The notes under the pieces are model-generated. The model was not told where the DNA came from. It ran no database searches and saw nothing but the letters and a program-made list of their open reading frames with translations. Positions 291 through 37,790 of a stretch of 64,000 bases of DNA are shown here, in pieces. How positions within the stretch are numbered: the stretch's first letter is position 1; each line of letters begins with the position of its first letter. Both the position numbers and the translations under genes were made by a program. The stretch is from Ohtaekwangia koreensis (lineage in GTDB: Bacteria > Bacteroidota > Bacteroidia > Cytophagales > Cyclobacteriaceae). The DNA is taken from positions 496,001-560,000 of the forward strand of contig NZ_FUZU01000003.1 of NCBI RefSeq assembly GCF_900167975.1. Reading direction: 5' to 3'.

Positions 291-309
291 CGCTAATTAT
301 ATAGATTCC

Positions 310-11882: not shown

Positions 11883-11884
11883 GT

Positions 11885-17129: not shown

Positions 17130-18122
17130 CTAAAATAATTCAAGATCTCCAAAGGAAGGACTCCACCCTTCGAAGCCCGTAAAGTTGCTTAAATCTGGCA
17201 ATATTATATTGTGAATCATTACAGTCGGTCCAACTTTACGTTTTAATACTAACATATCTGCTCCCAGAAGATTCGCGATTCCAAAGTTCCCTGACGTTAC
17301 ATAATCAGCATTGTGTTCGTGAACCTTACTATCCAATATCTGCTTCAAATTCTGAACATACTTTTTATCGGAAAAAAAAACATCGGTGATTCTGAATTCC
17401 GTCCCTGCAAACGTATGCTTGATTCGATAAAAAAATAATGCTTTCAATTCTTTATCCTCAACTCCTGCCGCATGGTATTCTGCTACCGGTACATCTGCAT
17501 AACGCCACTTCAATGTCGCAGCAGAGTGCTCTGTAATTACATTAGAGCCATAGAGCAAATTATTTAATGATATCAGCTTAGCCAACCCAACATTATTCAA
17601 ATAGTATGAGATTGATTCATCTTTTTTTAACGTCGTTTTTTGCCTTGCCTTTTTTCGTAACACAACATCGAGCATCATCGATACCGGTCTTATCACCTTC
17701 ATTTGAATCGGTAACTTACCGGCCTCTGCCCAACCTAGTTTAGTATATCCTCGTTTACTTTTTTTATTAGGTGTACTGAATAACATCCCATATTCATATT
17801 TATGGCAATGATCTATTAATGCCAAGGTTAGTTTTCCAAACATACCGTTACCTTGATAGTCCGGATGTACAACAGTATCTACTCCCCTCACCGCTTCAAT
17901 GATCCCATTACTTGACCTCCACTTCCAACGCATAAATGTTCGAACGCCAACGATTTTATTTTTGTCAATGGCCAATAATACCAATGACTTTCCAAAAGGG
18001 TTATCCTGATGTTTCCATCGCCAATAAATTTCAGATTTAGGAAGAAGACTCTCTCCTAATCCTAGCTTCAGTAGGCTTACGATTTCAGGTATGTCACCTT
18101 CCTCTGCGAGGCGAATTTCCAT
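17130..18122 (-). CDS. GNAT family acetyltransferase, paralogue 1
   Basis: A 330-residue protein with an N-terminal GNAT domain. IRLAEEGDIPEIVSLL begins the fold, and VVHPDYQGNGMFGKLTL (about 85-101) is the acetyl-CoA-binding motif A (Q-x-G-x-G/A type). The C-terminal half is a second alpha/beta domain ending in GWSPSFGDLELF. It is clearly paralogous to the next gene in transcription, 18251-19234 (same start MEIR, same motif order, same tail). Such two-domain GNATs sit in polysaccharide loci and may acylate amino sugars; no substrate is known to me. It starts 128 bases after the paralogue ends. Confidence 0.8.
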   Translation of the reverse strand: MEIRLAEEGDIPEIVSLLKLGLGESLLPKSEIYWRWKHQDNPFGKSLVLLAIDKNKIVGVRTFMRWKWRSSNGIIEAVRGVDTVVHPDYQGNGMFGKLTLALIDHCHKYEYGMLFSTPNKKSKRGYTKLGWAEAGKLPIQMKVIRPVSMMLDVVLRKKARQKTTLKKDESISYYLNNVGLAKLISLNNLLYGSNVITEHSAATLKWRYADVPVAEYHAAGVEDKELKALFFYRIKHTFAGTEFRITDVFFSDKKYVQNLKQILDSKVHEHNADYVTSGNFGIANLLGADMLVLKRKVGPTVMIHNIILPDLSNFTGFEGWSPSFGDLELF

Positions 18123-18250: not shown

Positions 18251-19234
18251 CTAAAACAACTCGAGATCACCAACGGATGGCCCCCATCCATGAAAATTAA
18301 GGAGCGTATTGGCAGCATCAAACGTTATATTTCGAACTGTAACAATAGGCCCTACTGGTAACTTTCTTAAATATGGTCCTGCTCCGTTCAACCAAGAATT
18401 TAGTCCTGAAACTGTGACATAGTCAGCCGCATGGAGTTTTACCAGTTCCTTTACCATAGCACGTACTTCTGCCCTATACTTATCAGCGTCCATGAAAATA
18501 TCGGTTACCCTAAGTTCATTGCCTGCTTTGGAAGACTTCAATCTATATACCAATAAAACATTCAGCTTTTCTCCAGTTTGTAATGCACGAGTAAAGTATT
18601 GGGCTACCGGTACATCTTGATATCTCCATTGTAATGAATGTACAGAATGTGACGTAATGATTTGATCTTTACAGCGTGCTGCGTTCTGTTTCAAAAGTTC
18701 TTCAAGCCCCGAATGTTGAAGATGCAGTTCCTGGCAACTATCATTTATCTTTATTGATGACCGTTTAAGTCTTGACATATTTAGTGCGATAGAAAATGGA
18801 TGTACTATAGGAATGCTAATAGGAAGTTTCCCTGCCTCTTTCCATCCCATCTTAAGATATCCTGGCTTACTACTATTATTCGGAGTATTGAAAACAAAAT
18901 GCCATTTTTCACGGGCGCAGTAATCCAAAAGCTCCAGAGTCAGTTTCTTAAAAATACCGCGGCCCTGATAATCTGGATGTGTGGCTGTATCTACTGCACG
19001 GACAGCCTCAAAGATTTGTCCTGCAGATCTCCATTGCCATCGCATAAACGCCCGCACACCTACCAATGTATCATTTTCAAAAGCCAGTATTACAGGAGAT
19101 TTACCGAACGGATTATCAATATGTTTCCATTGCCAATACTCTTTTGACTTTGGCATGAGTTCCTCGCCAAGGCTTTTTTTTAGTAACTCAACAATTAAAG
19201 GTATGTCGTGCTCGGTAGCAGTCCTGATCTCCAT
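18251..19234 (-). CDS. GNAT family acetyltransferase, paralogue 2
   Basis: A 327-residue GNAT protein closely similar to the 17130-18122 gene. Shared landmarks are IRTATEHDIPLIVELL, the KEYWQWKHIDNPFGKSP block, TATHPDYQGRGIFKKLTLELL (acetyl-CoA-binding motif) and the terminal GWGPSVGDLELF. The shared C-terminal domain and identical last residues (GDLELF) indicate tandem duplication with divergence rather than independent acquisition. It is preceded by a 72-base gap after a GT4 gene. The substrate is unknown; it may transfer an acyl group to an amino sugar of the glycan. Confidence 0.8.
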   Translation of the reverse strand: MEIRTATEHDIPLIVELLKKSLGEELMPKSKEYWQWKHIDNPFGKSPVILAFENDTLVGVRAFMRWQWRSAGQIFEAVRAVDTATHPDYQGRGIFKKLTLELLDYCAREKWHFVFNTPNNSSKPGYLKMGWKEAGKLPISIPIVHPFSIALNMSRLKRSSIKINDSCQELHLQHSGLEELLKQNAARCKDQIITSHSVHSLQWRYQDVPVAQYFTRALQTGEKLNVLLVYRLKSSKAGNELRVTDIFMDADKYRAEVRAMVKELVKLHAADYVTVSGLNSWLNGAGPYLRKLPVGPIVTVRNITFDAANTLLNFHGWGPSVGDLELF

Positions 19235-24046: not shown

Positions 24047-24781
24047 CTAGTTATTTGTCACAATAGCTTTCAAAGTATCATCCAGAATAATTGATTTCTC
24101 GTTGTTCTTTTCCAACATTTTTAAAAACTCCCTAAACTCAATATCAGGATCATGTAGCCCTTGAGCTGCTATATGTCTTTTGTTTGCTTCCATATCAACT
24201 AAATCATCCCTATACCCTTTACTGTAGGGTGTTTTAAAGAATGTAAAACCTGTTATATAAACCTCTTTAAAAGGCGATTTCAAAATGCTATATAAAGCCG
24301 CGTAACCAACGGTTGGCTTAAACCCATTAAATGGTTGCTCTATTTCGCGGTAATAAGCATTCGAAAGAAGATATGTTACCTTTAACTCATTGTATTTCTT
24401 ATAAAAGTTATAGTTCAATCTCCATCCTTCTTTGTTATTAATTGGATTGACTACATACTTTACATTCCGCTTTTCAAATAATTGAAAGTCCAATGGACCT
24501 CCTCCGCTCAAGTTATTTTCATAAAAAGAATGAAATAAGACATCTGTTTTTGTACCGATAAACACTTCATTCTCTTGTCTCCAAGTTGTTAATGCCTTAT
24601 TGATTCTAATCACTATGTCAAAAGAATCAATATAAGCACCAAGCTCCTTCTCATAAGCTGAGCTGGCAGCTCCGATTACTGCGATGCGCTTTCCTTTAAA
24701 TATCTTATCAGGGTTAAAAATTCTAATACCCCAAGGCATTATGAATAAACCAGATATAGCTTTCAATAATTTAACGATCAT
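24047..24781 (-). CDS. GT29-like (sialyltransferase family) glycosyltransferase
   Basis: A 244-residue protein carrying the landmarks of family 29 sialyltransferases, better known from animals. Residues 31-80 (KRIAVIGAASSAYEKE ... IDSFDIVIRINKA ... GTKTDV) parallel sialylmotif L (G-N-S-G, I-D-x-x-D-x-V-x-R-x-N). Residues 155-180 (KPTVGYAALYSIL ... EVYITGF) parallel sialylmotif S. H210-x4-E215 has the spacing of motif VS. A CMP-activated acidic sugar is the expected donor. This fits the cytidylyltransferase encoded two genes upstream. No N-terminal anchor beyond a short hydrophobic stretch (5-17) is seen. The assignment is from motif reading only. Confidence 0.65.
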   Translation of the reverse strand: MIVKLLKAISGLFIMPWGIRIFNPDKIFKGKRIAVIGAASSAYEKELGAYIDSFDIVIRINKALTTWRQENEVFIGTKTDVLFHSFYENNLSGGGPLDFQLFEKRNVKYVVNPINNKEGWRLNYNFYKKYNELKVTYLLSNAYYREIEQPFNGFKPTVGYAALYSILKSPFKEVYITGFTFFKTPYSKGYRDDLVDMEANKRHIAAQGLHDPDIEFREFLKMLEKNNEKSIILDDTLKAIVTNN

Positions 24782-25406
24782 AGCTAGTAAATGAATTGAT
24801 ATAGTCTACTCCGAGACCTTTCATTTGCACATTATTATACCCAAAGAAATCAACTCTATTGGAAGAAGCTGCTTCCCAGTCGTTTATTGAATCCCCTATA
24901 AAAGCAACGGTTTCTGATGGGTATTCAAATTCTTTTAACAGATCTGCCACAAGTTGTTTCTTCGGTGTTGGCGACCCATGTATAGAAATAAAATATCCAT
25001 CGAGTTGTAGTTGCTGACAGAGATAGCGGAGCTCGTTCTGATCGGAACCTGACACGACATGCATTTTATAGTCTTGATAATTCTCTTTTATAAAAGCAAT
25101 GGAATCATGAATCAACAATTCTATGTTTAGCAACTCTTTTCTCATCACCTGCGAAAATTCTTCCGCCAATGTAAGCACTTCCGGTTCTGTAATAGTTTCC
25201 CTTCTAATCACTTCAAAGAAGTGTCTGAATTTTACATAGCGCGAAAGTCCACCATTTTGTCGATGATAAACGAGTAGTTGCTCCACTTCTTGATCGGGAT
25301 ATGATGCCAACACCAATTGAAAGCCGCGATCACGAACGGGCATAGAGTCCATCAATACGCCATCAAAATCCCAAAAAATGGCCTTATACTTTGTAAAGTC
25401 TGTCAT
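24771..25406 (-). CDS. HAD superfamily phosphatase
   Basis: A haloacid-dehalogenase-like hydrolase. I start it at ATG 25406 (MTDFTKYKAIFWDFDG), giving 211 residues; an ATG 15 bases upstream is also in frame. Motif I is DFDGVLMDS (Asp13 nucleophile, Asp15 acid/base), motif II VVSGSD, a lysine follows in PTPKKQ, and motif IV is GDSINDWEAA. The helical cap between motifs I and II makes it C1-type. It overlaps the cytidylyltransferase gene and the GT29-like gene. By position it would dephosphorylate a sugar or ulosonic-acid phosphate before CMP activation, as KdsC and KDN-9-phosphate phosphatases do. The substrate is inferred. Confidence 0.82.
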   Translation of the reverse strand: MTDFTKYKAIFWDFDGVLMDSMPVRDRGFQLVLASYPDQEVEQLLVYHRQNGGLSRYVKFRHFFEVIRRETITEPEVLTLAEEFSQVMRKELLNIELLIHDSIAFIKENYQDYKMHVVSGSDQNELRYLCQQLQLDGYFISIHGSPTPKKQLVADLLKEFEYPSETVAFIGDSINDWEAASSNRVDFFGYNNVQMKGLGVDYINSFTSYDR

Positions 25407-26082
25407 AGATAGCTTCGGCAATCAAAAAATCATCTTCCAAATCCACATCTAGTGATTTAATTGCACCTAACACGAAGATGTCAAGGTTTGGAGTGACTCT
25501 GTTGTTATACTTAAGATAGTTACTCTTGCTGTTGATATAAAAGGCATGATTTACCTCGTAGAGTGGCCTTAAGTCCTGCGTTCTTGGCCAATTTCCTCCT
25601 TCAATATCGAAGTTAATCATTTGCCGGCTATCGTTGTCCCAAAGAAACTGTTGCAGCTTATTCACGCTTAGCAAACTATCAAATGAATTATTGTTGAGGT
25701 TTTTAAAGTACTGTTCAATAGCTTGGTTGTAATCTTCAACACCAACAAATGGTGTCGTTACATGCAACCAAAGTATATGATCGGTGGATACGCAAGTCGG
25801 GACATAGGCAATCAGGTCTGATACCTTTGTTTCAGAAAGGCACAAATTCTCTGGTCGTTCAATAATACGGAGGCGGGTGTCTTTAAAACGTGATCCCACA
25901 TCAATGGAAGCCGGATCATTCGTTGATAGTATAATTTCATTAACGTTTTTGAGCTTGAGTATATTTTGCAATTTTAAATACAAAAGCCCTCCCTTTATTC
26001 CGCAAAAGTCTCTTGTGTTCTTATTTGCAACACGCTCACTGCCTTTTCGCGTTGGAAGGAACACGCTTATCGAATTATCCAT
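25384..26082 (-). CDS. Acylneuraminate cytidylyltransferase family protein (CMP-ulosonate synthetase)
   Basis: A 232-residue CTP-transferase of the NeuA/KdsB type. The N-terminal nucleotide loop SVFLPTRKGSERVANKNTRDF matches the P-x-R-x-G-S-x-x-x-x-x-K-N consensus. ILWLHVTTPFV corresponds to the QPTSPF block. Conserved acidic residues near the C-terminus (DVDLEDDFLIAE) match the Asp pair that binds metal in this fold. It is shorter and divergent from the NeuA/LegF-like enzyme at 32899-33585, so the locus has two different CMP-sugar synthetases. It overlaps the aldolase gene by 8 bases. The predicted product is a CMP-activated 2-keto-3-deoxy acid of unknown identity. Confidence 0.82.
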   Translation of the reverse strand: MDNSISVFLPTRKGSERVANKNTRDFCGIKGGLLYLKLQNILKLKNVNEIILSTNDPASIDVGSRFKDTRLRIIERPENLCLSETKVSDLIAYVPTCVSTDHILWLHVTTPFVGVEDYNQAIEQYFKNLNNNSFDSLLSVNKLQQFLWDNDSRQMINFDIEGGNWPRTQDLRPLYEVNHAFYINSKSNYLKYNNRVTPNLDIFVLGAIKSLDVDLEDDFLIAEAIYDRLYKV

Positions 26083-27634
26083 AGATGATTGAGTATACAG
26101 AATTTACATTAAGAGATTTATAATTAGTCGGTGTCAAACTATACAATGAGCAAGAACAAGAGTCTACAAATTTTTTGAACAAATATTCGTTCTCATATAT
26201 AAGACTCTGTTCTTTCTGTGTAATCGACCCCTCCTGGTAACCGTCATAACCGATTACTGCCAACTCTTCAACACCTAAGCACAATGCAGTTTGCAATGCT
26301 ATTGCCGTATGTGAATCCCCAAATTTATCCGTAAAAAGGTCAGAGGGCAATTCATAAGATTTGCCTCCAATAGCAGCAGGAATATATGTACCCATTTTTC
26401 TTGGATATGGAGGCAGCACACAGTTCCCTTTAAAATTTTTTATGTCTTCAAAAACTTGCTCCAATCTATAGCCTTCGTTGCCAACGAGTGAAAAATACTG
26501 ATCGAAATTTATATCTTTATATAGTGCCGCGTTTTTTGACGAAGCGTGTATTATTACAAGATCGTTTTGTGCTTTGATGAATTCACTTATTGCCCTTTGG
26601 TGGTATCTGGCTGTAGGACCTCCACCGATGATCAGCCCTTTTTTACTTTTTTTGTTTGGTCTAAATTCGGCTAGCCTCTCATTGTCAATTATACCTGCTT
26701 TCTGATTTTCAAGAGCTCTAATAATACTATTGATTGAGTAATACCGGGTAGACACCCACTCCATTACATCCTTTTGTGGAAGCGAATTAGCGCCAGAAAC
26801 CATATACGGTAGGTTTGTACCCCAGTGATAATTCTGTTTTAATTTTTCAAATCCGTCTACTGTCTTTGAAAGAGCATTAAAGTTTAGCTTCAGGCCCATC
26901 CTGGCATTCAGTGCGGTCAGCAGCAATTCTGTTTTCAAATTACCGGCACCACGTCCCATACCTGTAACAGTAGCATCAATAATCTCGGCACCGTGCTCCG
27001 CAGCAGTCAAAGAATTAATGAGCGCCAACTCCATATTATTATGACCATGAAAGCCTAACTTAACGGAGGTACGTTCTTTTACCATCTGTATAGTATCAAT
27101 AACATCTTGCGGATATACACCACCATAAGAATCTACCATGTAAAAGTAATCTGCTACAGCATCTACATATTTTAGTTCATTTAAAAATGCAGTATTCTGC
27201 TTCCACTTGCTCATGTACATGGTGTTGAAACCTACTTCAAATCCCATCTTCTTGATTTCTTCTGCAAGTTTTAACGCGCGGCTAAACTGCTCTGGATCAA
27301 GCGCAATTCGAACCATATCAATCAGTCCTACGCATGGCTTTAATAGTTGCTCAACATGTTCAGGTCTAACATTTTTTTCATCCAGAATAATTACCAGCTT
27401 TTTAGTCGACAATTGCCTGGCTTCCCGCAACACATATTCCGGGCAATAAAAATATTCACCCAGATATTCTTTCATGGGATTATTTCTATAACCAATCTCT
27501 AAATAATCGACTGGTAAATCATTAAAGGAGTTCAGGTAAGTGTTCACCAGATCTCTATTAAAATCCCAATTCGTGTAGTAGCCACCATCACGAAGGGTAC
27601 AATCCAATATTTTGTAGTTTATTATTTTATCCAT
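26075..27634 (-). CDS. DRE-TIM metallolyase-type aldolase fused to a C-terminal Rossmann-like domain
   Basis: A 519-residue two-domain protein. Residues 1-300 form an HMGL-like TIM barrel. ILDCTLRDGGYYTNW contains the catalytic Arg15-Asp16, GFHGHNNMELA the metal ligands His196 and His198 with Asn199, and TGMGRGAGN (224-232) the conserved loop. Relatives condense or cleave pyruvate or acetyl-CoA adducts (4-hydroxy-2-oxovalerate aldolase, HMG-CoA lyase). Residues 330-519 begin LIIGGGPTA and end with GDSHTAIALQTALCLGVEELAVIGYDGY and TPTNYKSL, resembling the DUF115/GT42 Rossmann-like fold. It is encoded with a cytidylyltransferase and a phosphatase, so formation of a 2-keto-3-deoxy sugar acid is the natural guess. 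No described pathway of this exact form is known to me. Confidence 0.75.
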   Translation of the reverse strand: MDKIINYKILDCTLRDGGYYTNWDFNRDLVNTYLNSFNDLPVDYLEIGYRNNPMKEYLGEYFYCPEYVLREARQLSTKKLVIILDEKNVRPEHVEQLLKPCVGLIDMVRIALDPEQFSRALKLAEEIKKMGFEVGFNTMYMSKWKQNTAFLNELKYVDAVADYFYMVDSYGGVYPQDVIDTIQMVKERTSVKLGFHGHNNMELALINSLTAAEHGAEIIDATVTGMGRGAGNLKTELLLTALNARMGLKLNFNALSKTVDGFEKLKQNYHWGTNLPYMVSGANSLPQKDVMEWVSTRYYSINSIIRALENQKAGIIDNERLAEFRPNKKSKKGLIIGGGPTARYHQRAISEFIKAQNDLVIIHASSKNAALYKDINFDQYFSLVGNEGYRLEQVFEDIKNFKGNCVLPPYPRKMGTYIPAAIGGKSYELPSDLFTDKFGDSHTAIALQTALCLGVEELAVIGYDGYQEGSITQKEQSLIYENEYLFKKFVDSCSCSLYSLTPTNYKSLNVNSVYSIIYG

Positions 27635-29105: not shown

Positions 29106-30179
29106 TCAATTTATTAAAATTTTTTCCCAGCTATTCATAACTTTTTCCTGCGTGAATCTGTCCAGTCCCTTCGTAACGTTTCTTTTCAGATGCGCATACA
29201 GATCCTTATTTACAAGAAGCTCGGTCATTGCTTCTCCCATTTTTTCATAATCACCTACCGGAAATAAATAGCCGTTATCTCCATGAAAAATTATTTCTTT
29301 AGGACCTGTCTTGGCTAGTGACGAAATCACTGGTGTGCCTAATGACAAAGCCTCTACCACTACATTTGGAAAGCCTTCGCGAAGCGAAGCATTTATTAGT
29401 GCGACAGCATTCACCATATAAGGATGCGGGTCACCTATAAATCCCTTCAGCTTAACGTAATCAGTCAACTCAAGCTTTCTGATCAATGCTTTCAAATGAA
29501 GCATCTCCGAACCATCTCCTAAGATAACTAAATCTGCTCTTTCAAAAATCCTGAATCGATGATATGCTTCTATTACCTGTGCTACATTCTTTTGCCGGCT
29601 AAGTCTCGACACTATTGCAAAGTATGTGCGGCTTTCAGGAAGTTCTGATGCTTGCTCCGCGTTCTTTTTGGGCAGAGGAACCGGGTTATAGATGGTTACT
29701 AACTTGCGCTTATTAAGAAAAAACCGAGTAACATCTTCCTTCAATTCTTCTGATGGGCATACTACGTATTTTACCCAGGGCATATTATAGAAAAACCAGA
29801 ATTGCCATTGCTTGTACTTTTTATAGCCTATCAAAGGATAGATATCAAATCTGGTGACTGTATGTCTGAATAAAACGCATGTGGCTAATAAGCTGCCTAT
29901 ACGTGACATCGCAATCAGTCGCTTCGGTCTAAGCGTTCTGACTAGCTTTCTTACATTTGCTATAACATATAATGCACTAAGTACCTTACTGGTGTATCGC
30001 TTATGATCTACATGAACAATATTTACTCTGGGATCCAGTTCAAAAGCGATGTTGCGTATAAAAAGAGCTATAGTAACAGCATGGCCACGGCTAACCAAAT
30101 GGTTAGCGAGTATAGCAGTATTGCGTTCTGCTCCACCTTTCTTCAGTGAGCCTACTAATAATAGATAATTAAATTTCAT
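29106..30179 (-). CDS. Glycosyltransferase family 4
   Basis: A 357-residue GT4 enzyme. I start it at the ATG 30179, which overlaps the upstream stop (TGATG), rather than the TTG three bases earlier. The N-domain loop SLKKGGAERNTAILANHLVSRGH, the donor-domain opening FAIVSRLSRQKNVAQVIEA and EGFPNVVVE (EX7E) are clear. The sequence between residues 110 and 150 is rich in aromatic and basic residues and may touch the membrane. Donor unknown; it lies between the GT42-like and Kdo-transferase-like genes. Confidence 0.9.
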   Translation of the reverse strand: MKFNYLLLVGSLKKGGAERNTAILANHLVSRGHAVTIALFIRNIAFELDPRVNIVHVDHKRYTSKVLSALYVIANVRKLVRTLRPKRLIAMSRIGSLLATCVLFRHTVTRFDIYPLIGYKKYKQWQFWFFYNMPWVKYVVCPSEELKEDVTRFFLNKRKLVTIYNPVPLPKKNAEQASELPESRTYFAIVSRLSRQKNVAQVIEAYHRFRIFERADLVILGDGSEMLHLKALIRKLELTDYVKLKGFIGDPHPYMVNAVALINASLREGFPNVVVEALSLGTPVISSLAKTGPKEIIFHGDNGYLFPVGDYEKMGEAMTELLVNKDLYAHLKRNVTKGLDRFTQEKVMNSWEKILIN

Positions 30180-31051
30180 CAATTGTACGTTGGTAAGAAT
30201 CTACTAAGCAGTGAAGAACTATTATAGATAAATATGGATACATCCTTTGAAATACCATGCTCTCTAATAAGTTGGATCAAATCTTCCACAATCAACTCTC
30301 CGTAAAGTTTATTGTTCGTTTTGTGAATTGAATCACTACTAAAGACTTTTTTATTCTCTTCAATCAAAGCAGAAATAACATCATCAGAAACAGAGGGGTT
30401 TTTCAAAAATGTAGTATCATAAAAATAATCTGAATTCATCAAATCTATACCACAAATAATGATTCGCTTATATTTCATTTTAATTCCGAAAAACAAGAGA
30501 CCGACTATTGAGGCTCTCTTCCAAAAATTAATAAAATTGAATAAACCATATTTGTACAAGAAATCAATCACCGACAAAGAGAGATTAAAATATCTCTGGG
30601 AGGAACCAGGGATTGAAAAAAAGTCCATAAATGACCCGACACCAAATACCTTATCACGAAAAGCGCTATCTCTCGCAAAACGAACATCTTTATATATTAC
30701 TAATGAAGATTTATATTGTTCTTCTACAGAAAGAAATAGTTTCTTAAAAGTCTCATATCTTCCCTTGTCCCTTGGTGTTTCAAAGAAATAAAAACTCGGC
30801 ACAAAACTATGAACGGGCCAAAAATTAAAACCTATAGTATCATAACCAGCAAACTCTTCCCAATGAATTTTACTAATTTCATTAATGGATTTTCCGCTTC
30901 CTAATATAACGAGGGTATCTGATTTTTTTCTCTTCTGTAGTTCATTCCAAGTAACAGTTTTACTTTCACCTTTTTTTCTCCAACTAATCTTCGAAAACTT
31001 CAGAAGAACTTTATATATAAAGTAATTTATATAGATGATTCGTTTTATCAT
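30179..31051 (-). CDS. GT42/DUF115-like protein, candidate sialyltransferase
   Basis: A 290-residue protein starting at ATG 31051, five bases after the ABC-exporter stop; an earlier TTG at 31075 is in frame. The order of blocks follows Campylobacter Cst-type (GT42) sialyltransferases. LVILGSGKSINEI (48-60) stands for the nucleotide loop. IIICGIDLMNSDYFYDT (197-213) stands for the G-I-D block. SIHKTN (241-246) holds a His-x-x-Asn like the catalytic His region, and YNSSSLLSRFLP (276-287) matches the C-terminal N-S-x-L block. A short N-terminal hydrophobic stretch could associate with the membrane. The gene is strikingly AT-rich. A DUF115 protein of other function is the main alternative. Confidence 0.5.
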   Translation of the reverse strand: MIKRIIYINYFIYKVLLKFSKISWRKKGESKTVTWNELQKRKKSDTLVILGSGKSINEISKIHWEEFAGYDTIGFNFWPVHSFVPSFYFFETPRDKGRYETFKKLFLSVEEQYKSSLVIYKDVRFARDSAFRDKVFGVGSFMDFFSIPGSSQRYFNLSLSVIDFLYKYGLFNFINFWKRASIVGLLFFGIKMKYKRIIICGIDLMNSDYFYDTTFLKNPSVSDDVISALIEENKKVFSSDSIHKTNNKLYGELIVEDLIQLIREHGISKDVSIFIYNSSSLLSRFLPTYN

Positions 31052-31055
31052 TGCA

Positions 31056-32855
31056 TTAAAACTGTTGCAGTTCAACCATTTTCTGGAATTTCTTTGAATT
31101 CACTTTCAAATCATCAAAATTGCCTATATCTTCAATTACACCTTTATTAAGATAGATGATCCTGTCAGCATTCTTAACTGTCGACAACCTGTGGGCAATG
31201 ATAATAATGGTGAATTGTCCTTTAAGTTGATCTATATTTTCCTGAATGCTTCGTTCTGTTTCGGAATCAAGTGCTGATGTTGCTTCGTCCATAAATAGGA
31301 AGTCAACATCTTTATATAACTCACGGGCAATAGAGATGCGCTGTTTTTGCCCACCACTCACCATAATACCATTATTTCCTAACTGTGCTTTTTCTTTATC
31401 GGGCAGGCCCATTACAAAATCATATATAGAAGCCATTTTCATAGCCCGTTCAAATCGCTGAATATTGGCAGGCGTTGGTACATCCCAAAATGTTATGTTA
31501 TTAAATACAGTATCATTGAAGATAACGGGCTCTTGTGTGATATACCCTATTCTCTTTTGAAACGATACGATATCAATCGTCTGACTATCCTTATCATCAA
31601 TAAAGAACATTCCTTTTTCACCACTTAAAAGTCCGCTCAATACATTCATTAACGTGGTCTTTCCAGAACCACTTTCTCCTACCAGCGCAATGGTTTCATT
31701 TTTTGGTATTTCAAGGGAGATATCCCGAAGTATAGGTTCATTTCCATAGGAGAAAGATAAATTTTTCAGTAGCAATGACTTCTGAAACTTATCTACTTTT
31801 TCGGTTCCTCTCACCTCCTGATGTGATCTCAGTTCATTCGTAAATTCAGACATGTTCTCCAAAGAACCGGAAACTGATAAAAAAGTATTCCAATAGTTCT
31901 GAAGGGCCATTAAAAAGGTAAGGGACCTATAGAAGAACAATAAACTCAAAATAATCAGTCCCAAGCTCTGAGAGAAAAATTTTACCTGTACCAGGATCAC
32001 GGACACTACTACCACCATAACGATTGGTTCTCTCATGGCTGCCAGAAATGTAGACATCAGGCCTATTCTTCGTTGTGCCTCTTCTATTTTTAGAATAATG
32101 CGTTTTAGTTTATCTCCAAAATCGTGTATCAGTCCTGTAGCCTTTAAGTATTTAAAGTTTGCAACCTTTTGAATTAACAATCCTTGAAAAATGTGAGACT
32201 CCTTCGTTAGCTCCCGAGACAACTGCTTTGTAATCTGGTATACTTTTTTAAATATCAAGTTAGTAAGGGCTCCACCGATAGCAACCAGAATGGCGAATTG
32301 AGGATTAACCATAAAGGCAAGGAAAATATATACTGCTACCAATACACCGTACTGAAAAGATGTAAAGTAAGATCGATAAGCCTGCAATACTTTCTCAACT
32401 TCTCCGCTAAATGTGTTTTGAATTCTTCCTGAGTCACTGCTTACAAAAGCTTTATATTTAAAACCGGAAAGCAATGTGATATTTGAAAACCGAATTATCC
32501 TTATAAATCGTTGTTGCAAGAGCACTTTATAATATCCTTCAGCATATTTCATTAATCCTTTCAAAACAAAAAAAGTAAGGATTACCAAAAGAACTGTTTG
32601 TAGTGTGAGGCTAAAACCCAACCAACTCAACCCGTCAACCAAAAAAGATAAATTTCCCATCTGTTCAGACTGAACCTGAGCACCACTATTATCCACCATC
32701 TGTAGTAACGGCAGAAACATAGCCAACCCGAAACCATCCAGAACACCTACTGCTAAACTTATACCGACAGAAATAAAAATTCTGTAACCAAGATAATTAT
32801 AGAAGTAGTAGAAGTCTTCAAATTGTTTTTTAATTAATTGCTTTAGCCTATCCAC
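31056..32855 (-). CDS. ABC exporter, fused permease-ATPase (MsbA/PglK-like)
   Basis: A 599-residue half-transporter with a GTG start at 32855. It has an N-terminal six-helix membrane domain (about 25-320) and a C-terminal ATPase. Walker A is GESGSGKTT (near 394), Q-loop GYITQEP, signature VSGGQKQRIS, Walker B VDFLFMDEATSALD and H-loop AHRLS. In Campylobacter the related PglK flips lipid-linked oligosaccharide. No Wzx-type flippase is encoded in the window, so this protein is the best candidate for moving the lipid-linked glycan across the inner membrane. It lies between the two CMP-sugar blocks. Export of another lipid or peptide cannot be excluded. Confidence 0.9.
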   Translation of the reverse strand: MDRLKQLIKKQFEDFYYFYNYLGYRIFISVGISLAVGVLDGFGLAMFLPLLQMVDNSGAQVQSEQMGNLSFLVDGLSWLGFSLTLQTVLLVILTFFVLKGLMKYAEGYYKVLLQQRFIRIIRFSNITLLSGFKYKAFVSSDSGRIQNTFSGEVEKVLQAYRSYFTSFQYGVLVAVYIFLAFMVNPQFAILVAIGGALTNLIFKKVYQITKQLSRELTKESHIFQGLLIQKVANFKYLKATGLIHDFGDKLKRIILKIEEAQRRIGLMSTFLAAMREPIVMVVVVSVILVQVKFFSQSLGLIILSLLFFYRSLTFLMALQNYWNTFLSVSGSLENMSEFTNELRSHQEVRGTEKVDKFQKSLLLKNLSFSYGNEPILRDISLEIPKNETIALVGESGSGKTTLMNVLSGLLSGEKGMFFIDDKDSQTIDIVSFQKRIGYITQEPVIFNDTVFNNITFWDVPTPANIQRFERAMKMASIYDFVMGLPDKEKAQLGNNGIMVSGGQKQRISIARELYKDVDFLFMDEATSALDSETERSIQENIDQLKGQFTIIIIAHRLSTVKNADRIIYLNKGVIEDIGNFDDLKVNSKKFQKMVELQQF

Positions 32856-32898: not shown

Positions 32899-33585
32899 TT
32901 ATACTAGTCCCTGATTTAGTATAGTCTCACATAGAGCCCAGTCTAAAGGGGAATCTATATCCTGTGAGTGTAACTCATCCATAACATACTTCCTGACTTT
33001 TTTAAATTCATGAAGCGGTTGTTTTCGCAATGAAAAAACATTAATCATGTATAATGACCCATTATAAAAGTAGCTTGACGGAGCATCCTGCCGTCTCTTA
33101 AAAGAACCTGACTTACTTTTTTGAAGAAATCCTTCCTGGTCCTCTTCAAAAATATTAAAATAAGGACTATAGGGACTCACCCCTACGGATACAACCATGT
33201 CCAACGAACTAGTATATAGCGCTTTGATCTCCTGTAAATGTTCTGCCTTACGGAAAGGCGATGTCGGCTGCATTAGCAAAACAGAATCATATTGAATTCC
33301 GTTCTTCGCATAAAAGTCCAAAGCATGCAGTAATACCTCGTAGGTACCGGCTGTGTCGGTAGCCAACGATTCAGGTCTGGTAAAGGGAACTTTCAAACCC
33401 GTTTCCAGAACACAATCAATAATTTTATCAGAGTCTGTAGAGATACATATATCTGCATCATCTGTGAAAGTTCTTGCAACTTTTATACTGTGATGTATCA
33501 ACGGAATTCCGCCCAACGGCTTAATATTTTTAAGGGGTATACCCTTTGAACCACCACGTGCCGGTATAATTACTAAGGTTTTCAT
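32899..33585 (-). CDS. CMP-N-acetylneuraminate/legionaminate synthetase (NeuA/LegF-like)
   Basis: A 228-residue cytidylyltransferase. TLVIIPARGGSKGIPLKN is the canonical CTP-binding N-terminus, and VLLMQPTSPFRKAEHL the substrate loop. It activates a nonulosonic acid with CTP in the cytoplasm. The gene is immediately preceded (no intervening base) by the PtmE-like gene and follows the LegG/LegI pair. Together with LegB this makes CMP-legionaminic acid the most likely product, with plain CMP-sialic acid as the alternative. Confidence 0.9.
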   Translation of the reverse strand: MKTLVIIPARGGSKGIPLKNIKPLGGIPLIHHSIKVARTFTDDADICISTDSDKIIDCVLETGLKVPFTRPESLATDTAGTYEVLLHALDFYAKNGIQYDSVLLMQPTSPFRKAEHLQEIKALYTSSLDMVVSVGVSPYSPYFNIFEEDQEGFLQKSKSGSFKRRQDAPSSYFYNGSLYMINVFSLRKQPLHEFKKVRKYVMDELHSQDIDSPLDWALCETILNQGLV

Positions 33586-34644
33586 TTATAGCTCAAGGTG
33601 TTTAATATCCATCTGTGCTTTGAGAAAATCCTGTTGATTACCTATATCAAGCCAGTAGTTGAGTATCGGAAAGTTTACAACTTTACGCTTGCTGCGTATC
33701 AGATCATCCATCAGATCGGTTGCATTATACATGCCTTCCGCAGGAATGAGATCACGAAGTTTTGATCTCAAAAGATAGATACCTGCATTCGAGTAATATA
33801 CATAGGTTGGTTTTTCTTTTAGTGAAGTAACATGAAGATCATCACTTAACTCCAATACTCCATAGGGTATATTTACACTGTACGGAACGCTGGCAACGCA
33901 CATATCTGCATTGATAGCAAGAAAGTGTTTATAGAAATCCTCAAAATCAAGTGTTGTCAGAATATCAGAATTCATTACTAGGATATGCTCGTGGCGAATT
34001 TGTGGCGCCAGGCGAAACGCTCCTATCGTACCAAGTGGTTCATCCTCCTCGATATACTTTATATTGACACCTTTCGACTTTCCATCTCCAAAATAATCCT
34101 GAATGTTTTTTCCCAGGTACTTGATACTGATGTAAAAGTCTTCAACACCATATTTGATAAGTCTGTCGATATTGTGTTCAATGATGGGTTTATCACCGAC
34201 TTTCAACATGGGTTTAGGCGTAGCATCTGTAAGCGGTCTTAAGCGCTCACCCCTGCCACCCGCCATAATCAGTGCGGATATAGGAACTATAGCTTGCACT
34301 TGTTTCAGATCGATCAGCTTTACAATACGCTCTTTTGAATCAAGCACAGGAAGCAGATGAATCTTAAGTCCTTTATACAGTTTTACTTCTTCTGCATTGA
34401 TCTGATCTTCGCGAAGGAATTTGAATTTCCGGTTCATGTAAAGATTTACATTCTCAGATATCTCTCTCCCTGACAGAAGGCCTCTGCGAATATCACCATC
34501 GGTTACTGTTCCTAAAAGCTTACCTTCTTCGTTGATAATAAAAAGCGTGCGACTGTCTTTTGAAGACAGCGCATCTAACTTTTGTAAAGCCTGACGAGCA
34601 TTGCTTTTGTCGTCTATTACATATTCTCTAAAATCAACAAACAT
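33586..34644 (-). CDS. CBS-domain sugar-phosphate nucleotidyltransferase (PtmE-like)
   Basis: A 352-residue protein with two N-terminal CBS repeats (residues 1-120; GTVTDGDIRRGLL is the classic loop). A nucleotidyltransferase domain opens ALIMAGGRGERLRPLTDATPKPMLKVGDKPI. The architecture is that of PtmE of the Campylobacter legionaminic acid pathway, which makes the GDP-amino-sugar precursor (glucosamine-1-phosphate guanylyltransferase). It directly abuts the LegF-like gene. The presence of PtmE is the main reason to prefer a GDP-linked legionaminic route over ordinary sialic acid. CBS domains suggest regulation by an adenine nucleotide, known in general for CBS proteins. Confidence 0.85.
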   Translation of the reverse strand: MFVDFREYVIDDKSNARQALQKLDALSSKDSRTLFIINEEGKLLGTVTDGDIRRGLLSGREISENVNLYMNRKFKFLREDQINAEEVKLYKGLKIHLLPVLDSKERIVKLIDLKQVQAIVPISALIMAGGRGERLRPLTDATPKPMLKVGDKPIIEHNIDRLIKYGVEDFYISIKYLGKNIQDYFGDGKSKGVNIKYIEEDEPLGTIGAFRLAPQIRHEHILVMNSDILTTLDFEDFYKHFLAINADMCVASVPYSVNIPYGVLELSDDLHVTSLKEKPTYVYYSNAGIYLLRSKLRDLIPAEGMYNATDLMDDLIRSKRKVVNFPILNYWLDIGNQQDFLKAQMDIKHLEL

Positions 34645-34653
34645 AATCTATGG

Positions 34654-35778
34654 CTAATAAAATAGTTGCTTTAACGAACTACATATCGTATCGGCTGAGC
34701 CGTCTCGATAGTATATATTTTCACCTGTATAGTCACCCTTTCCAGAAATTGACTTAACTGCTTCCAACATAGCGTCACTGGATATCGGAACATCTACGAT
34801 ATTATCAGATTGCATGCGTCCTTTTTGGCGGTCGCCTACATTGATAACGTATTTGTGTAATGATGCTGCTTCAATGATTCCACTGGATGTATTACCCAAT
34901 AGAAATGCACAATGATGCATTACCGAAAAATATCCTCTTGTACCTAAATTCTCCACCATTACTATATGAGGCAGACCTGATAATTTTTCAATGAATATAT
35001 TTCGAACCGTAGCTCCTAACGTATCGGCATTCGGCATTGTAATTACAATTTGAAATTGAGACAACGCCATAAAAGTCTTTACCAATTCATTGGCATAATG
35101 TATATTCTCCGATACGTTCACTGTCTCCGGATGAAATGTTACCAATATCGTAGGCGCTGCCATATCAATATTCCATTTATTCTTAATCTCATCCTTCGAT
35201 AAGAAAGAAATATCTGCCAGCGAATCAAGACTTAATGCTCCTACATTATATATATGTTCGGGTTCATCCAACATTTGCTTTAACCGTTCTGCATACGCTT
35301 CGGTCGAAACAAAGTGACACCACGCAGCCTGTGAAATAGAATGCCTGAAAAAATTATCAATAGCCCCTAATGTTTTTTCACCACCATGTAAATGTCCAAA
35401 TTTTACACCAAAAGGGACTCCTGCCGTTACAGCAGCAAACATCTCGTAACGATCTCCCAGGCAGAGCACTATATCATATTGACTTGCACGCATTCCCCAG
35501 TACTGCGAAAATTTCATCATCGTTAATGACATCGCTGTAGCAATTGCTTCAGGAGAATCACCTGTTAATAAAGACTCAATCTTTGTATCAATGGAAAAAC
35601 CTTCTGCTTCAATCGCCTTTACTGTATAACCATGAAAAGGAGACAAGTGACTTCCAAAGGCTATAATCTTCAAATTGAAGAAAGTATCGTTCTGCATCTT
35701 CTTCAGTAAAGGAAGATAGATACCAAAATCTGCTCGTGAGCTTGTCAGAACGCCTACTCTCAATGGAAGTGTTGCCAT
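34654..35778 (-). CDS. UDP/GDP-sugar 2-epimerase, hydrolysing (NeuC/LegG-like)
   Basis: A 374-residue enzyme of the hydrolysing UDP-GlcNAc 2-epimerase family. It opens LRVGVLTSSRADFGIYLPLL, and contains LCLGDRYEMFAAVTAGVP, GHLHGGEKTLGAIDNFFRHSI and the nucleotide-binding LLGNTSSGIIEAA. It releases the 2-epimerised free sugar (ManNAc or the 2,4-diacetamido-trideoxymannose) that NeuB/LegI condenses with phosphoenolpyruvate. Its start codon overlaps the end of the synthase gene by 19 bases. The choice between NeuC and LegG rests on the neighbours. Confidence 0.92.
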   Translation of the reverse strand: MATLPLRVGVLTSSRADFGIYLPLLKKMQNDTFFNLKIIAFGSHLSPFHGYTVKAIEAEGFSIDTKIESLLTGDSPEAIATAMSLTMMKFSQYWGMRASQYDIVLCLGDRYEMFAAVTAGVPFGVKFGHLHGGEKTLGAIDNFFRHSISQAAWCHFVSTEAYAERLKQMLDEPEHIYNVGALSLDSLADISFLSKDEIKNKWNIDMAAPTILVTFHPETVNVSENIHYANELVKTFMALSQFQIVITMPNADTLGATVRNIFIEKLSGLPHIVMVENLGTRGYFSVMHHCAFLLGNTSSGIIEAASLHKYVINVGDRQKGRMQSDNIVDVPISSDAMLEAVKSISGKGDYTGENIYYRDGSADTICSSLKQLFY

Positions 35779-36782
35779 GTTAATTTTTCACCAGACGCTA
35801 AGTTCTTCGATACTTTTTTTCCTATAACAAGATCAAGTAACATCGGAGATATACCGTCACCAGGGCGCTTCATGATGAGGTCACTCTTCGACAACACATC
35901 CCCTTCTTTTTTATCGGTCGCTAAATGTATACTCTTTCTTACCAGGCTTTTATTCGGCAATTCAGATGCAGAAGCACGCTTCCTTCCATCACCTTGCAAG
36001 GCAAGCTCTACATTGCGAATAGATCTGACCATGTGTGCCAGTTCATTTGGTTCCAGTGATGCTTTGTGATCAGGCCCCGGCAAATTACGATCAAGTGTAA
36101 AGTGCTTCTCTATTACGGTAGCTCCTAATGCCACTGCTGCTATCGGAATTTCTATACCTAATGTATGATCCGAATATCCTACACGAACTTTAAATGCATC
36201 TCTGATAGAAAGCATAGCGCCAAGATTAACATCTTCGAAAGGTGTAGGATATTGTGAATTGCAATGCAGCACTGCTATATCTTCAATAGGGACACCTGCT
36301 TGCGTCAACACATCCAGTGCTTGCTCAATCTCTCCCAAGGACGACATACCGGTAGAAACCACAACAGGTTTCTTCTTTGAAGCCATGTGCTTGAGGTATG
36401 GATAATTGGTGATTTCTCCAGACGGCACTTTAAAGAAATCGATACCGACCGAATCCAGAAAGTCAAGGCTGTCCTCATCAAATCCCGTTGACAGAAATTT
36501 GATACCAGCTTCATCTGCATATTTCTTCAGTATGTGATGGTCAGCTTCGCTTAGCTCAAGCTTCTTTAACATGCCATACTGCGAATCATCCCCATCGTTA
36601 ATATTTTTGGATTGATAAGAAGCTTTCTTGGCTTCTGTGCTTACAAGTTTGTCAGCTTTAAACGTCTGAAACTTTACATAGTCCGCACCCGCTTCCGCAG
36701 CAGCATCAATCAATTGCTTTGCTTTTTCTATCTCGCCATTATGATTAACTCCGGCTTCTGCTATAATAGTAACTTGACTCAC
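35760..36782 (-). CDS. N-acetylneuraminate/legionaminate synthase (NeuB/LegI-like)
   Basis: A 340-residue PEP-dependent synthase with a GTG start at 36782. The TIM barrel (1-270) has IIAEAGVNHNG, GADYVKFQTF, VVSTGMSSLGEIEQAL, LHCNSQYPTP and SDHTLG. The C-terminal SAF antifreeze-like domain (about 280-340) covers SIHLATDKKEGDVL and MKRPGDGISPM. It makes the nine-carbon 2-keto-3-deoxy acid from a mannose-configured amino sugar and phosphoenolpyruvate. It is adjacent to LegB- and LegG-like genes. Confidence 0.93.
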   Translation of the reverse strand: MSQVTIIAEAGVNHNGEIEKAKQLIDAAAEAGADYVKFQTFKADKLVSTEAKKASYQSKNINDGDDSQYGMLKKLELSEADHHILKKYADEAGIKFLSTGFDEDSLDFLDSVGIDFFKVPSGEITNYPYLKHMASKKKPVVVSTGMSSLGEIEQALDVLTQAGVPIEDIAVLHCNSQYPTPFEDVNLGAMLSIRDAFKVRVGYSDHTLGIEIPIAAVALGATVIEKHFTLDRNLPGPDHKASLEPNELAHMVRSIRNVELALQGDGRKRASASELPNKSLVRKSIHLATDKKEGDVLSKSDLIMKRPGDGISPMLLDLVIGKKVSKNLASGEKLTWQHFH

Positions 36783-36791
36783 GGTGTTGTA

Positions 36792-37790
36792 TTAAAGATT
36801 ATAAATATCAGATTTATACCCGGCTATGTTTTGGGACTGAGAGAACCACTCAATGGTCTCTTTCAATCCTGCATCCAATGTATACTTTGGTTTCCAGTCT
36901 GTATACTCTATAAGTTTTTGATTGCTGCCAAACAATCTGAACACTTCACTCTTCTCAGGTCTTAATCGCTGTTGGTCTTCTTCAATTTTAATATCCGAAC
37001 CAATTTGACTCACAAGCTTACGTGCCAGGTCTCCAACCGAAATTTCAGATTGAGTGGCTATATTAACATCATGCCCCAGGAGCTCATCACATTTAGCAAT
37101 GGCTACAAACCCTTCAACGGTATCTTTTACATAAAGCAAATCACGTGTCGGTGTGAGATCTCCAAGTTTTAGTGACGTTGCTCCATTCAGTAACTGTGTT
37201 ATAATAGTAGGTATAACTGCTCTTGCAGATTGACGTGGACCGAATGTATTAAATGGTCGTACAATTGTAACCGGTAGATTAAAACTTCTGTAGAAAGACT
37301 CAGCTATACAATCTGCTCCTATTTTAGATGCCGAGTACGGAGACTGCGGTTGACGAGGATGACGCTCATCTATAGGTACATATTGCGCTGTACCATATAC
37401 TTCTGATGTTGATGTAACCAGTACGCGTTTAGTATTAAGATCGCGTGCTGCCTGCACTACATTTAACGTTCCTTTTACATTGGTATCAACATAGCTATCC
37501 GGTGAGTGATAGCTAAATGGTATAGCGATTAAAGCCGCAAGATGAAAAACAACATCAACGCCTTGCATGGCGGTACGCACTCCATTGGGATCACGTATAT
37601 CTCCTGCAAAAATCTCAAGTTTATTCTTCAATTCTTTTGGAAATGTATCAATCCACCCCCAGCTATTAAAAGAGTTATAGTAGACAAAGGCTTTTACTTT
37701 ACATCCTTCTTCAAGGAGTCGTTGTGTGAGATGGCTCCCTATAAATCCATCTGCTCCTGTAACTAATACTGTTTTACCTCTTAATTCCAT
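36792..37790 (-). CDS. NAD-dependent sugar-nucleotide 4,6-dehydratase/epimerase (LegB-like)
   Basis: A 332-residue extended SDR. NAD-binding VTGADGFIGSHL (about 10-21), TSTSEVYGTAQYVPIDE, the catalytic YSASKIGAD (Tyr-x3-Lys) and RPFNTFGPRQSARAVIPTII are all present. The GPRQSARA-IPTII stretch is characteristic of LegB, which forms the 4-keto-6-deoxy intermediate of legionaminic acid from GDP-GlcNAc in Campylobacter. Being cytosolic and lacking membrane segments, it differs from the PglF-like dehydratase at 2672-4690. It is the first gene of the legionaminic-type block in transcription order. Confidence 0.88.
   Translation of the reverse strand: MELRGKTVLVTGADGFIGSHLTQRLLEEGCKVKAFVYYNSFNSWGWIDTFPKELKNKLEIFAGDIRDPNGVRTAMQGVDVVFHLAALIAIPFSYHSPDSYVDTNVKGTLNVVQAARDLNTKRVLVTSTSEVYGTAQYVPIDERHPRQPQSPYSASKIGADCIAESFYRSFNLPVTIVRPFNTFGPRQSARAVIPTIITQLLNGATSLKLGDLTPTRDLLYVKDTVEGFVAIAKCDELLGHDVNIATQSEISVGDLARKLVSQIGSDIKIEEDQQRLRPEKSEVFRLFGSNQKLIEYTDWKPKYTLDAGLKETIEWFSQSQNIAGYKSDIYNL

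Follow-up and report, generated by a model that had tools for sequence, protein, structure and literature searches.

A conserved gene cassette that may build and CMP-activate ulosonic acids by an aldolase-first route

We describe a modular gene cassette that probably builds a 2-keto-3-deoxy sugar acid (ulosonic acid) by an aldolase-first route and activates it with CMP for incorporation into a surface glycan. To our knowledge, dedicated biosynthesis of CMP-ulosonic acids (sialic, legionaminic and pseudaminic acid, Kdo and Kdn) proceeds via PEP-dependent synthases, and the pyruvate aldolases that we know of for these acids are degradative.

The cassette lies in a 64,000-nucleotide stretch of the Ohtaekwangia koreensis genome (contig NZ_FUZU01000003.1, positions 496,001 to 560,000; the window). 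A preliminary description of this DNA had placed four overlapping genes at 24047-27634, and all four reading frames were present there on the minus strand, where, with the starts as called, neighbouring frames overlap at their ends by 8, 38 and 11 nt (Table 1); for the HAD gene the called TTG start is an uncertain one. The NeuA/KdsB-type cytidylyltransferase and the HAD phosphatase that it named both scored above their Pfam cut-offs, and the block indeed holds no PEP-dependent synthase. Its DRE-TIM-type aldolase was likewise recovered, but the description had overlooked that this protein carries a fused C-terminal domain with a predicted sialyltransferase fold.

Table 1. Features of the cassette and of the neighbouring legionaminic-type set (positions in the window)
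Feature	Position	Strand	Evidence
DRE-TIM aldolase and sialyltransferase-fold fusion, 519 aa	26075-27634	-	PF00682, 86 bits (cut-off 29)
DRE-TIM metallo-aldolase N-domain of the fusion, residues about 6-313			PF00682; PDB 3dxi, 425 bits
Predicted C-terminal sialyltransferase-fold domain of the fusion, residues about 319-519	26078-26680	-	AlphaFold2/Foldseek/VIA
CMP-ulosonate synthetase-type cytidylyltransferase, group A, NeuA/PseF-like, 232 aa	25384-26082	-	CTP_transf_3 (PF02348), 28.9 bits (cut-off 22.6)
HAD family phosphatase (predicted), 216 aa	24771-25421	-	PF00702, 58.7 bits (cut-off 26.4)
GT29-like sialyltransferase, accessory, 244 aa	24047-24781	-	PF00777, 42.8 bits (gathering score 23)
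NeuB of the neighbouring legionaminic-type set	35760-36782		337 bits; no other strong NeuB in the genome

In a Pfam scan of the fusion protein no domain besides PF00682 exceeded its cut-off. Residues 6-313 matched PDB entry 3dxi, a 'Putative aldolase', over 308 residues. The sequence printed for this entry is in agreement with that of the Phocaeicola vulgatus protein at locus L092; the entry is a solved N-domain structure of an orthologue (320 residues, without the C-terminal domain) for which no function was stated at deposition. R15, D16, H196 and H198, which we take to be the DRE-TIM metal-site residues (the two histidines forming the HxH motif), were invariant in all 71 orthologues counted and in eight of eight distant relatives. 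The nearest characterised family is 4-hydroxy-2-oxovalerate aldolase, matched well below the equivalog cut-off (TIGR03217, 94.5 against 286 bits). The fusion protein has the PF00682 barrel and invariant metal-site residues in common with DmpG, BphI, MhpE and other DRE-TIM metallolyases. In contrast to DmpG, BphI and MhpE, it falls far below that cut-off, has Tyr19 aligned with what is presumably the catalytic-base His of 4-hydroxy-2-oxovalerate aldolase, and is fused to a sialyltransferase-fold domain. A phage collection yielded two matches to the N-domain, with query coverages of 47% and 40%.

A usable AlphaFold2 model of the C-terminal domain required a 77-row alignment, with which the pLDDT rose from 36.2 (single sequence) to 94.9. 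The top three Foldseek hits of this model were Maf (5mu5, E 2.6e-4), an MptE-type HPPK (8sd5, 5.6e-4) and CstII (2drj, 1.2e-3). VIA gave Z scores of 14.7 for Maf, 11.3 for the Mj HPPK and about 10-11 for Cst-I/II; SteA also reached 12. The domain missed the PF01973 gathering score (17.2 against 34.6 bits), and a profile search of PDB sequences returned nothing relevant, the Maf, Cst and MptE chains not being matched. Using hhalign, only 29 columns could be aligned with an MptE/CstI-like set (85% probability) and only 33 with a GT29 set (53% probability). Its kinship consequently rests on the fold, which is predicted to be that of the Maf and GT42 Cst-I/Cst-II glycosyltransferases and of archaeal MptE. 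The domain possibly binds a CMP-sugar and takes part in its transfer.

The genes for the aldolase, the CMP synthetase and the HAD protein stay together as a conserved cassette. We fetched 80 loci holding the closest relatives, a non-random set chosen by the aldolase and including near copies, and in all 79 that could be assessed a CTP_transf_3-type gene followed the aldolase. It did so directly in 67 loci, after an HpaI-type aldolase gene (PF03328) in 11, one of which also has an epimerase-like gene before the synthetase, and after an epimerase-like gene in one. The Pfam cut-off itself was exceeded by the window gene and by one seed of each other synthetase group, the figure of 79 coming from comparison with these seeds. 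The same HAD gene was in place in 63 of the 79 loci, so that the co-occurrence on which the preliminary description had staked its reading was observed. In a second genome sample, which shares several genomes with the first, all 17 full-length copies had the synthetase within 1.9 kb and 15 had the HAD gene. Conversely, when 148 genomes of the family were searched, the eight best HAD matches and the five best matches to the window's type of synthetase (group A) all stood beside the aldolase; these eight HAD matches, the only ones of at least 186 bits, lay within 1.7 kb of it.

PF00682 also takes in LeuA, HMG-CoA lyase and 4-hydroxy-2-oxovalerate aldolase, a breadth that would allow an amino-acid or aromatic-pathway aldolase to have been grouped with glycan genes by chance. 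This explanation retains next to no probability. It is refuted by the association of 79 in 79 loci, which persists through repeated changes of synthetase group and is, like that with the HAD gene, far beyond chance; the home genome has two further HMGL-like genes, both located on other contigs.

The cassette is present in the gut commensal Phocaeicola vulgatus ATCC 8482 and many other Bacteroidota, and the aldolase-synthetase-HAD trio also occurs on three plasmids of Leisingera (Alphaproteobacteria) at about 31% identity. The cassettes of L101, L103 and L105 consist of aldolase and synthetase only and have no glycan cluster downstream. Five plasmid homologues (Mesorhizobium, Paraburkholderia, Priestia, Niallia and Desulfobaculum) are short, comprise the N-domain only and have no synthetase on the fetched stretches. 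Of the two short homologues from the family search, L026 was without a synthetase match and L027 had one 5.8 kb away.

More distant relatives of the group A synthetase indicated what the aldolase replaces. Among 20 such loci, 14 had NeuB on the fetched stretch, none had a DRE-TIM aldolase and five had neither. The aldolase thus stands at the usual place of the PEP-dependent NeuB, which sets the cassette apart from the NeuB/NeuA pathways to sialic, legionaminic and pseudaminic acids. It shares with them a CTP_transf_3 synthetase and surface-glycan clusters and, we infer, a CMP-sugar acid used by sialyltransferase-type enzymes. No NeuB was found between aldolase and HAD gene in the listed loci, and only 17 of the 80 fetched loci had a NeuB match anywhere on the stretch; L084 is a locus where the gene immediately upstream of the aldolase is NeuB-like.

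The home genome contains four CTP_transf_3 matches: a MocA-like gene adjoining an XdhC gene, KdsB (TIGR00466, 232.7 bits against a cut-off of 155.2), a legionaminic-type NeuA and the cassette gene. KdsB pairs with the single KdsA (TIGR01362, 388.2 bits, cut-off 314). The legionaminic-type NeuA has as its partner the one true NeuB of the genome, whose second PF03102 match (31.8 bits) is a DAHP synthase. Therefore no PEP-dependent synthase is left for the third synthetase, that of the cassette.

These observations bear on whether the DRE-TIM domain builds the acid at all. It could instead modify or break down another intermediate, for example supplying an aldehyde by retro-aldol cleavage, with the ulosonate made by an HpaI-type aldolase or by a synthase elsewhere. 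HpaI/GarL/RhmA class II pyruvate aldolases, a family unrelated to DRE-TIM enzymes of which the two members scanned scored below equivalog cut-offs, accompany synthetases and HAD proteins of the same types in the 11 loci above and in the related cassette L198, whose genome gave no DRE-TIM match at E 1e-20; L074 has a further HpaI protein 5.4 kb downstream. If HpaI makes the ulosonate in the 11 cassettes, the DRE-TIM domain must act otherwise there, and the NeuB-like gene of L084 would also fit such a role. We nevertheless consider this quite unlikely, given that 68 of the 79 cassettes are without HpaI, that NeuB is missing between aldolase and HAD gene in the listed loci, and that the home genome offers no spare synthase.

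The HAD protein did not reach the KdsC model (TIGR01670, 20.7 against 106.95 bits), and a PDB search with it returned no match at E 1e-5. Its gene was not in place in 16 of the 79 assessable loci: L058 has a broken-looking fragment, the HAD match of L087 is 4.3 kb away and on the opposite strand, and four of these loci have a KDG-kinase-like PfkB at the HAD position. Since such a kinase would add rather than remove phosphate, it counts against a dephosphorylation step at those four loci. Because KDG-kinase-like and HpaI genes are neighbours of the cassette, the six-carbon KDG was considered as a product; the kinase would work in the wrong direction, and KDG was not established.

The cassette synthetases fall into five groups, either NeuA/PseF-like or KdsB-like. 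Group A forms a clade (support 100/99) separate from KdsB; its window member scored 57.3 bits with the PseF model TIGR03584, under the equivalog cut-off of 205.7. The KdsB-like groups B and B2 form clades separate from housekeeping KdsB. For two KdsB subfamily models of NCBIfam, group B scores above the cut-off (284.8 against 255 and 244.9 against 193), but not for TIGR00466 (132.9 against 155.2). On a quick aldolase tree the synthetase group changes 22 times by parsimony, where the minimum possible is 4. The trees and genome searches also separate the cassette synthetase from both housekeeping KdsB and the legionaminic-type NeuA, in agreement with the earlier view that the block is not simply redundant with the legionaminic-type set.

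The resemblance to the Kdo pathway (KdsA, KdsC and KdsB) would extend to a phosphorylated product, a HAD phosphatase and CMP activation. The cassette differs in having no KdsA and in a HAD protein that fails the KdsC model. One could suppose that new enzymes reach a sugar already known (Kdo or one of the nonulosonic acids) along a non-orthologous route, a proposal that overlaps with the aldolase-first explanation, which leaves the sugar open. The use of both KdsB-like and NeuA/PseF-like synthetases and the subfamily scores of group B are consistent with it. However, when 17 genomes carrying group B or B2 cassettes were searched, 14 had a further KdsB-like gene with 31-39% identity to the group B query, and the home genome already possesses sets for Kdo and for a legionaminic-type acid. 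Making these sugars a second way would then be redundant, and we regard a known acid as unlikely.

A product that is CMP-linked but not ulosonic, such as an activated 2-hydroxy acid, phosphonate or branched acid, appears very unlikely. Nucleotidyltransferases activate phosphonates in many bacteria, according to a published study (PMC6697681), and the presence of D-2-hydroxyacid dehydrogenases, both in L057 and in related cassettes (L198, L200 and L201), is a hint that some products may not be ulosonic acids. Against this, KdsB models match groups B and B2 (PRK13368, 284.8 bits for L037 and 194.5 bits for L042) and the neighbours include sialyltransferase-type families. A phosphonate context was rejected for the home cassette, the PEP-mutase-family matches of that genome being on other contigs.

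Transferase genes vary between loci. GT29 genes were found on 13 of 80 loci and MptE/CstI-like genes on 14 of 80; four of the proteins scanned exceeded the cut-off of the polysialyltransferase family PF07388, which occurs near some other cassette copies. The GT29-like protein of the window weakly matched the alpha-2,3-sialyltransferase 2wml in the PDB (E 0.0074). Its family assignment in the preliminary description thus stands, but not a core role, since GT29 is an optional companion of the cassette.

In the aldolase-first route that we propose from gene content and order, the N-terminal DRE-TIM domain would add pyruvate, as a metal enolate, to an aldose phosphate in the aldol direction, to yield a 3-deoxy-2-ulosonate phosphate. 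Removal of the phosphate by the HAD enzyme would come next, after which the NeuA/KdsB-type enzyme would couple the free acid, whichever sugar it may be, to CMP. Transfer would fall to a sialyltransferase-fold enzyme: in the window probably the GT29 gene product and elsewhere polysialyltransferase-like or CstI/MptE-like proteins, unless the fused C-domain itself does so, which is possible.

Full-text searches of an open-licence library turned up no description of the cassette, which is widespread in bacteria but apparently unstudied. More speculatively, and with considerable doubt, the fusion protein may both start and end a new CMP-ulosonic acid pathway, its C-domain binding the CMP form in order to transfer or sense it. 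Synthetase exchange would then diversify surface glycans across Bacteroidota, Balneolota, Verrucomicrobiota and Alphaproteobacteria, with ulosonic acids beyond the reach of any PEP-dependent synthase. The enzymes might be of use as new chemoenzymatic tools. If an aldolase does act in the place of the synthase, it would represent a second biosynthetic logic for ulosonic acids and point to unseen sugars on bacterial surfaces.

The four genes for which the preliminary description proposed a CMP-ulosonic acid pathway are present as described; they lie on the reverse strand, the ends of neighbouring genes overlap throughout the block, and each family assignment is borne out by Pfam. The aldolase nevertheless falls short of the 4-hydroxy-2-oxovalerate aldolase equivalog model (94.5 bits, cut-off 286), the synthetase of the PseF model (57.3 bits, cut-off 205.7) and the HAD protein of the KdsC model (20.7 bits, cut-off 106.95). 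Since the Pfam thresholds are passed and the equivalog models fail, these proteins are superfamily members but not the named enzymes. The separate legionaminic-type set with its own NeuA was also found; its CBS/nucleotidyltransferase gene is presumably PtmE-like. Elsewhere in the window, two adjacent ORFs apparently represent a tandem duplication.

Features of the window and of fetched loci of other genomes (L-numbers)
Feature	Location	Strand	Observation
Fusion aldolase	window 26075-27634	-	PF00682, 86 bits, above Pfam cut-off
Cytidylyltransferase (synthetase)	window 25384-26082	-	PF02348, 28.9 bits, above Pfam cut-off
HAD (predicted phosphatase)	window 24771-25421	-	PF00702, 58.7 bits, above Pfam cut-off
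GT29-like gene	window 24047-24781	-	PF00777, 42.8 bits, above Pfam cut-off
Legionaminic-type set	window 32899-37790		5.3 kb from block; NeuA-type CTP_transf_3, CBS/nucleotidyltransferase gene, NeuC, NeuB, LegB
298-aa ORF	window 30179-31075		clusters with MptE/CstI-like proteins from other loci; no Pfam match at E 0.1
Adjacent similar ORFs	window 17130-18122, 18251-19234		330 and 327 aa, GNAT-like by eye
Membrane protein	window 11337-11888		183 aa, looks exosortase-type by eye
Phocaeicola vulgatus cassette	L092:12264-14106		KDG-kinase-like PfkB in the place of HAD, then MptE/CstI-like gene
Double-synthetase cassette	L050:11553-15155		aldolase, then two synthetases (one of group A, one of group B); two GT29 genes flank a single HAD
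Short NeuB-like gene	L084:9079-9945		289 aa, directly upstream of aldolase; cassette without HAD
HpaI-type cassette	L198:6722-11259		CTP_transf_3, HpaI-type aldolase, epimerase-like gene, same HAD type, D-2-hydroxyacid dehydrogenase
Cassettes without aldolase	L200:4180-7441, L201:215-4500		CTP_transf_3, D-2-hydroxyacid dehydrogenase, same HAD type
~420-aa family	L088:8748-9995, L101:8754-10007, L107:14841-16109, L075:14555-15832		scans of two members, L088 and L107, gave no Pfam match

An inventory of the home genome upheld the claim that the cassette has no second PEP-dependent synthase. Four CTP_transf_3 matches were found. One is MocA-like (PF12804, 112.9 bits) and adjoins an XdhC gene; its best NCBIfam model, under the cut-off, is molybdenum cofactor cytidylyltransferase. 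The remaining three are KdsB (TIGR00466, 232.7 bits against a cut-off of 155.2), the NeuA of the legionaminic-type set and the synthetase of the cassette. The PEP-dependent synthases comprise one strong NeuB and three PF00793 matches, namely KdsA (TIGR01362, 388.2, cut-off 314) and two proteins that match DAHP synthase models, of which one passes the cut-off and the other does not. This count leaves the third synthetase, that of the cassette, without a PEP-dependent partner in the home genome. HMGL-like matches number three, the other two lying on other contigs.

The co-occurrence of the three genes extends across genomes. Genome contigs of bacteria and archaea were scanned, giving at least 595 pattern matches, at least 571 of them relatives; the best 80 were kept, and these are the closest relatives, with near copies among them, and not a random sample. 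One locus ends 237 bases past the aldolase gene (L053), leaving 79 assessable. Among these best 80 of at least 571 relatives, a CTP_transf_3-type gene follows the aldolase in 79/79 assessable loci and a HAD gene is in place in 63. The synthetase lies directly after the aldolase in 67, after an HpaI-type gene in 11 (one of which also has an epimerase-like gene) and after an epimerase-like gene in one. The 16 loci without HAD in place include one with a fragment-like match (L058) and one whose match is 4.3 kb distant and on the opposite strand (L087). Four of the 79 carry a PfkB kinase instead of HAD, never both; the best model for all four is the kinase part of a KHG/KDPG-aldolase/sugar-kinase fusion and the second best KDG kinase, each under cut-off. 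NeuB matches occur on 17/80 loci, in none between aldolase and HAD; the nearest are one directly upstream of the aldolase (L084) and two downstream, beyond HAD, at 3.5 kb (L034) and 4.4 kb (L076). In a second genome sample with 17 full-length aldolase copies, several of its genomes being common to the 80 loci, the synthetase was within 1.9 kb of the aldolase in 17/17 and HAD was present in 15. One genome, G256, holds two complete aldolase cassettes (L124, L125), separated by about 20 kb, whose synthetases differ.

What we regard as the strongest argument for the function of the aldolase comes from the exchange of its partner. The synthetases fall into five groups; the best-scoring model is PseF for A (that of the window), A2 and C, and a KdsB model for B and B2. 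On a tree using 51 of 91 rows, for which the program flagged long branches, A, B, B2 and C each form one side of a branch supported at 100/99 or better, and the A2 branch is poorly supported (91/46). Housekeeping KdsBs lie apart from group B on this tree, and 14 of 17 searched genomes with B or B2 cassettes (that of L079 not included) contain a further KdsB-like gene with 31-39% identity to the group-B query. A quick tree was made from 77 of the 80 aldolases, omitting L050 (two groups), L053, and L103, whose start was mis-called; on it the synthetase label changes 22 times by parsimony, and starred branches force at least nine changes for A and at least nine for B. As the least possible number is 4 and the shuffled mean 33.9, the labels are partly clustered and have been exchanged many times. 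Judged from these trees, the aldolase stays with one type of partner while the gene supplying it changes, which suggests that the aldolase makes the compound required by a CMP-ulosonate synthetase.

The window aldolase is a fusion of a DRE-TIM N-domain and a C-terminal domain (residues 319-519), and both domains were matched in 80/80 fetched relatives (the best 80 of at least 571). Residues 6-313 match PDB 3dxi, a 'Putative aldolase' (425 bits), whose printed sequence matches the opening stretch of the L092 protein from Phocaeicola vulgatus ATCC 8482. The C-domain, which carries an invariant D464/Y466 pair, gave a sub-threshold score with the MptE-like Pfam model (17.2 bits, cut-off 34.6). Its AlphaFold2 model, built from an alignment of 77 C-domains, has a pLDDT of 94.9 and a pTM of 0.92. 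Foldseek ranked the Maf glycosyltransferase 5mu5 first (E 2.6e-4), followed by the MptE-type HPPK 8sd5 (E 5.6e-4) and the sialyltransferase CstII 2drj (E 1.2e-3). VIA-align gave Z 14.7 with Maf (189 residues, 3.6 Å), 11.3 with Mj HPPK and about 10-11 with Cst-I/II. Because the cell-division regulator SteA also gives Z 12, transferase activity does not follow from the fold by itself.

Arg15, Asp16, His196 and His198, which we take to be metal and enolate binders as in the DRE-TIM family, are invariant in 71/71 counted orthologues (79 aligned, L100-L107 filtered out) and in 8/8 distant relatives. The catalytic His of 4-hydroxy-2-oxovalerate aldolases aligns with Tyr19 of the cassette enzyme; Tyr19 is invariant in the 71 orthologues and present in 5/8 distant rows. 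In the simplest scheme with a role for each conserved part, the aldolase would add pyruvate to an aldose phosphate, HAD would dephosphorylate the aldol product, the synthetase would activate it with CMP, and transfer would be the last step. The GT29-like transferase assigned to the set stands for the window, but GT29 occurs on only 13/80 loci; transferase-type genes vary, with MptE/CstI-like genes on 14/80, any of the five transferase seeds used on 27/80, and polysialyltransferase PF07388 above cut-off in four scanned proteins (L037, L038, L066 and L097). By its grouping, the 298-aa window ORF is a second candidate CMP-sugar transferase. A ~420-aa family found on 8/80 loci is perhaps an unrecognised glycosyltransferase.

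Several features do not fit this scheme. An HpaI-type aldolase accompanies the fusion protein in 11/79 cassettes, where the two may act one after the other or on separate sugars, and neither the KDG-kinase-like gene nor the D-2-hydroxyacid dehydrogenases of L057, L198, L200 and L201 have a role in it. L101, L103 and L105 contain aldolase and synthetase only; their downstream genes look unrelated to glycans, and sugar-nucleotide-type genes lie upstream of the pair in L103 and L105. The L198 genome, which has no DRE-TIM aldolase match, may harbour a parallel aldolase-based CMP-sugar route; its HpaI-only cassette supports the general idea of a pyruvate-aldolase route but lends no support to the DRE-TIM step.

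Beyond Bacteroidota, the best 80 of at least 571 relatives include Balneolota (L075, L082) and Verrucomicrobiota (L079); locus L073 belongs to the non-pathogenic Pedobacter cryoconitis. Three Leisingera plasmids share the gene order of aldolase, then cytidylyltransferase, then HAD; on one of them, whose aldolase has 536 aa, each of the three genes was established as homologous. With the aldolase in 9/395 genomes of the phylum at E 1e-60, home genome included, the cassette is widespread but patchy. A full-text literature search, judged by titles and the starts of abstracts, turned up no apparent description of it.

Reverse searches covered 148 home-family genomes. At E 1e-20, 12 of them have the aldolase, in 10 at full length and in two as the N-domain only, and 11 have HAD matches; all eight HAD matches of at least 186 bits are no more than 1.7 kb from the aldolase, which does not hold for the three weaker ones (84-103 bits). 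Group-A synthetase matches occupy 26 places in 24 genomes, the five of at least 199 bits all beside the aldolase. Of the other 21 places, 20 were fetched as stretches of 6-18 kb: NeuB was present on 14, HpaI on one and neither on five, and the DRE-TIM aldolase on 0/20. Group-A-like synthetases on L203, L204, L205, L206 and L215 have no NeuB or aldolase on the fetched stretch. The observation on the four genes is confirmed, and its interpretation is supported in its core, with parts corrected. In the home family, relatives of the synthetase usually occur with NeuB, and the cassette has the fused aldolase in that place; it is predicted to be a variant route of CMP-ulosonic acid biosynthesis.
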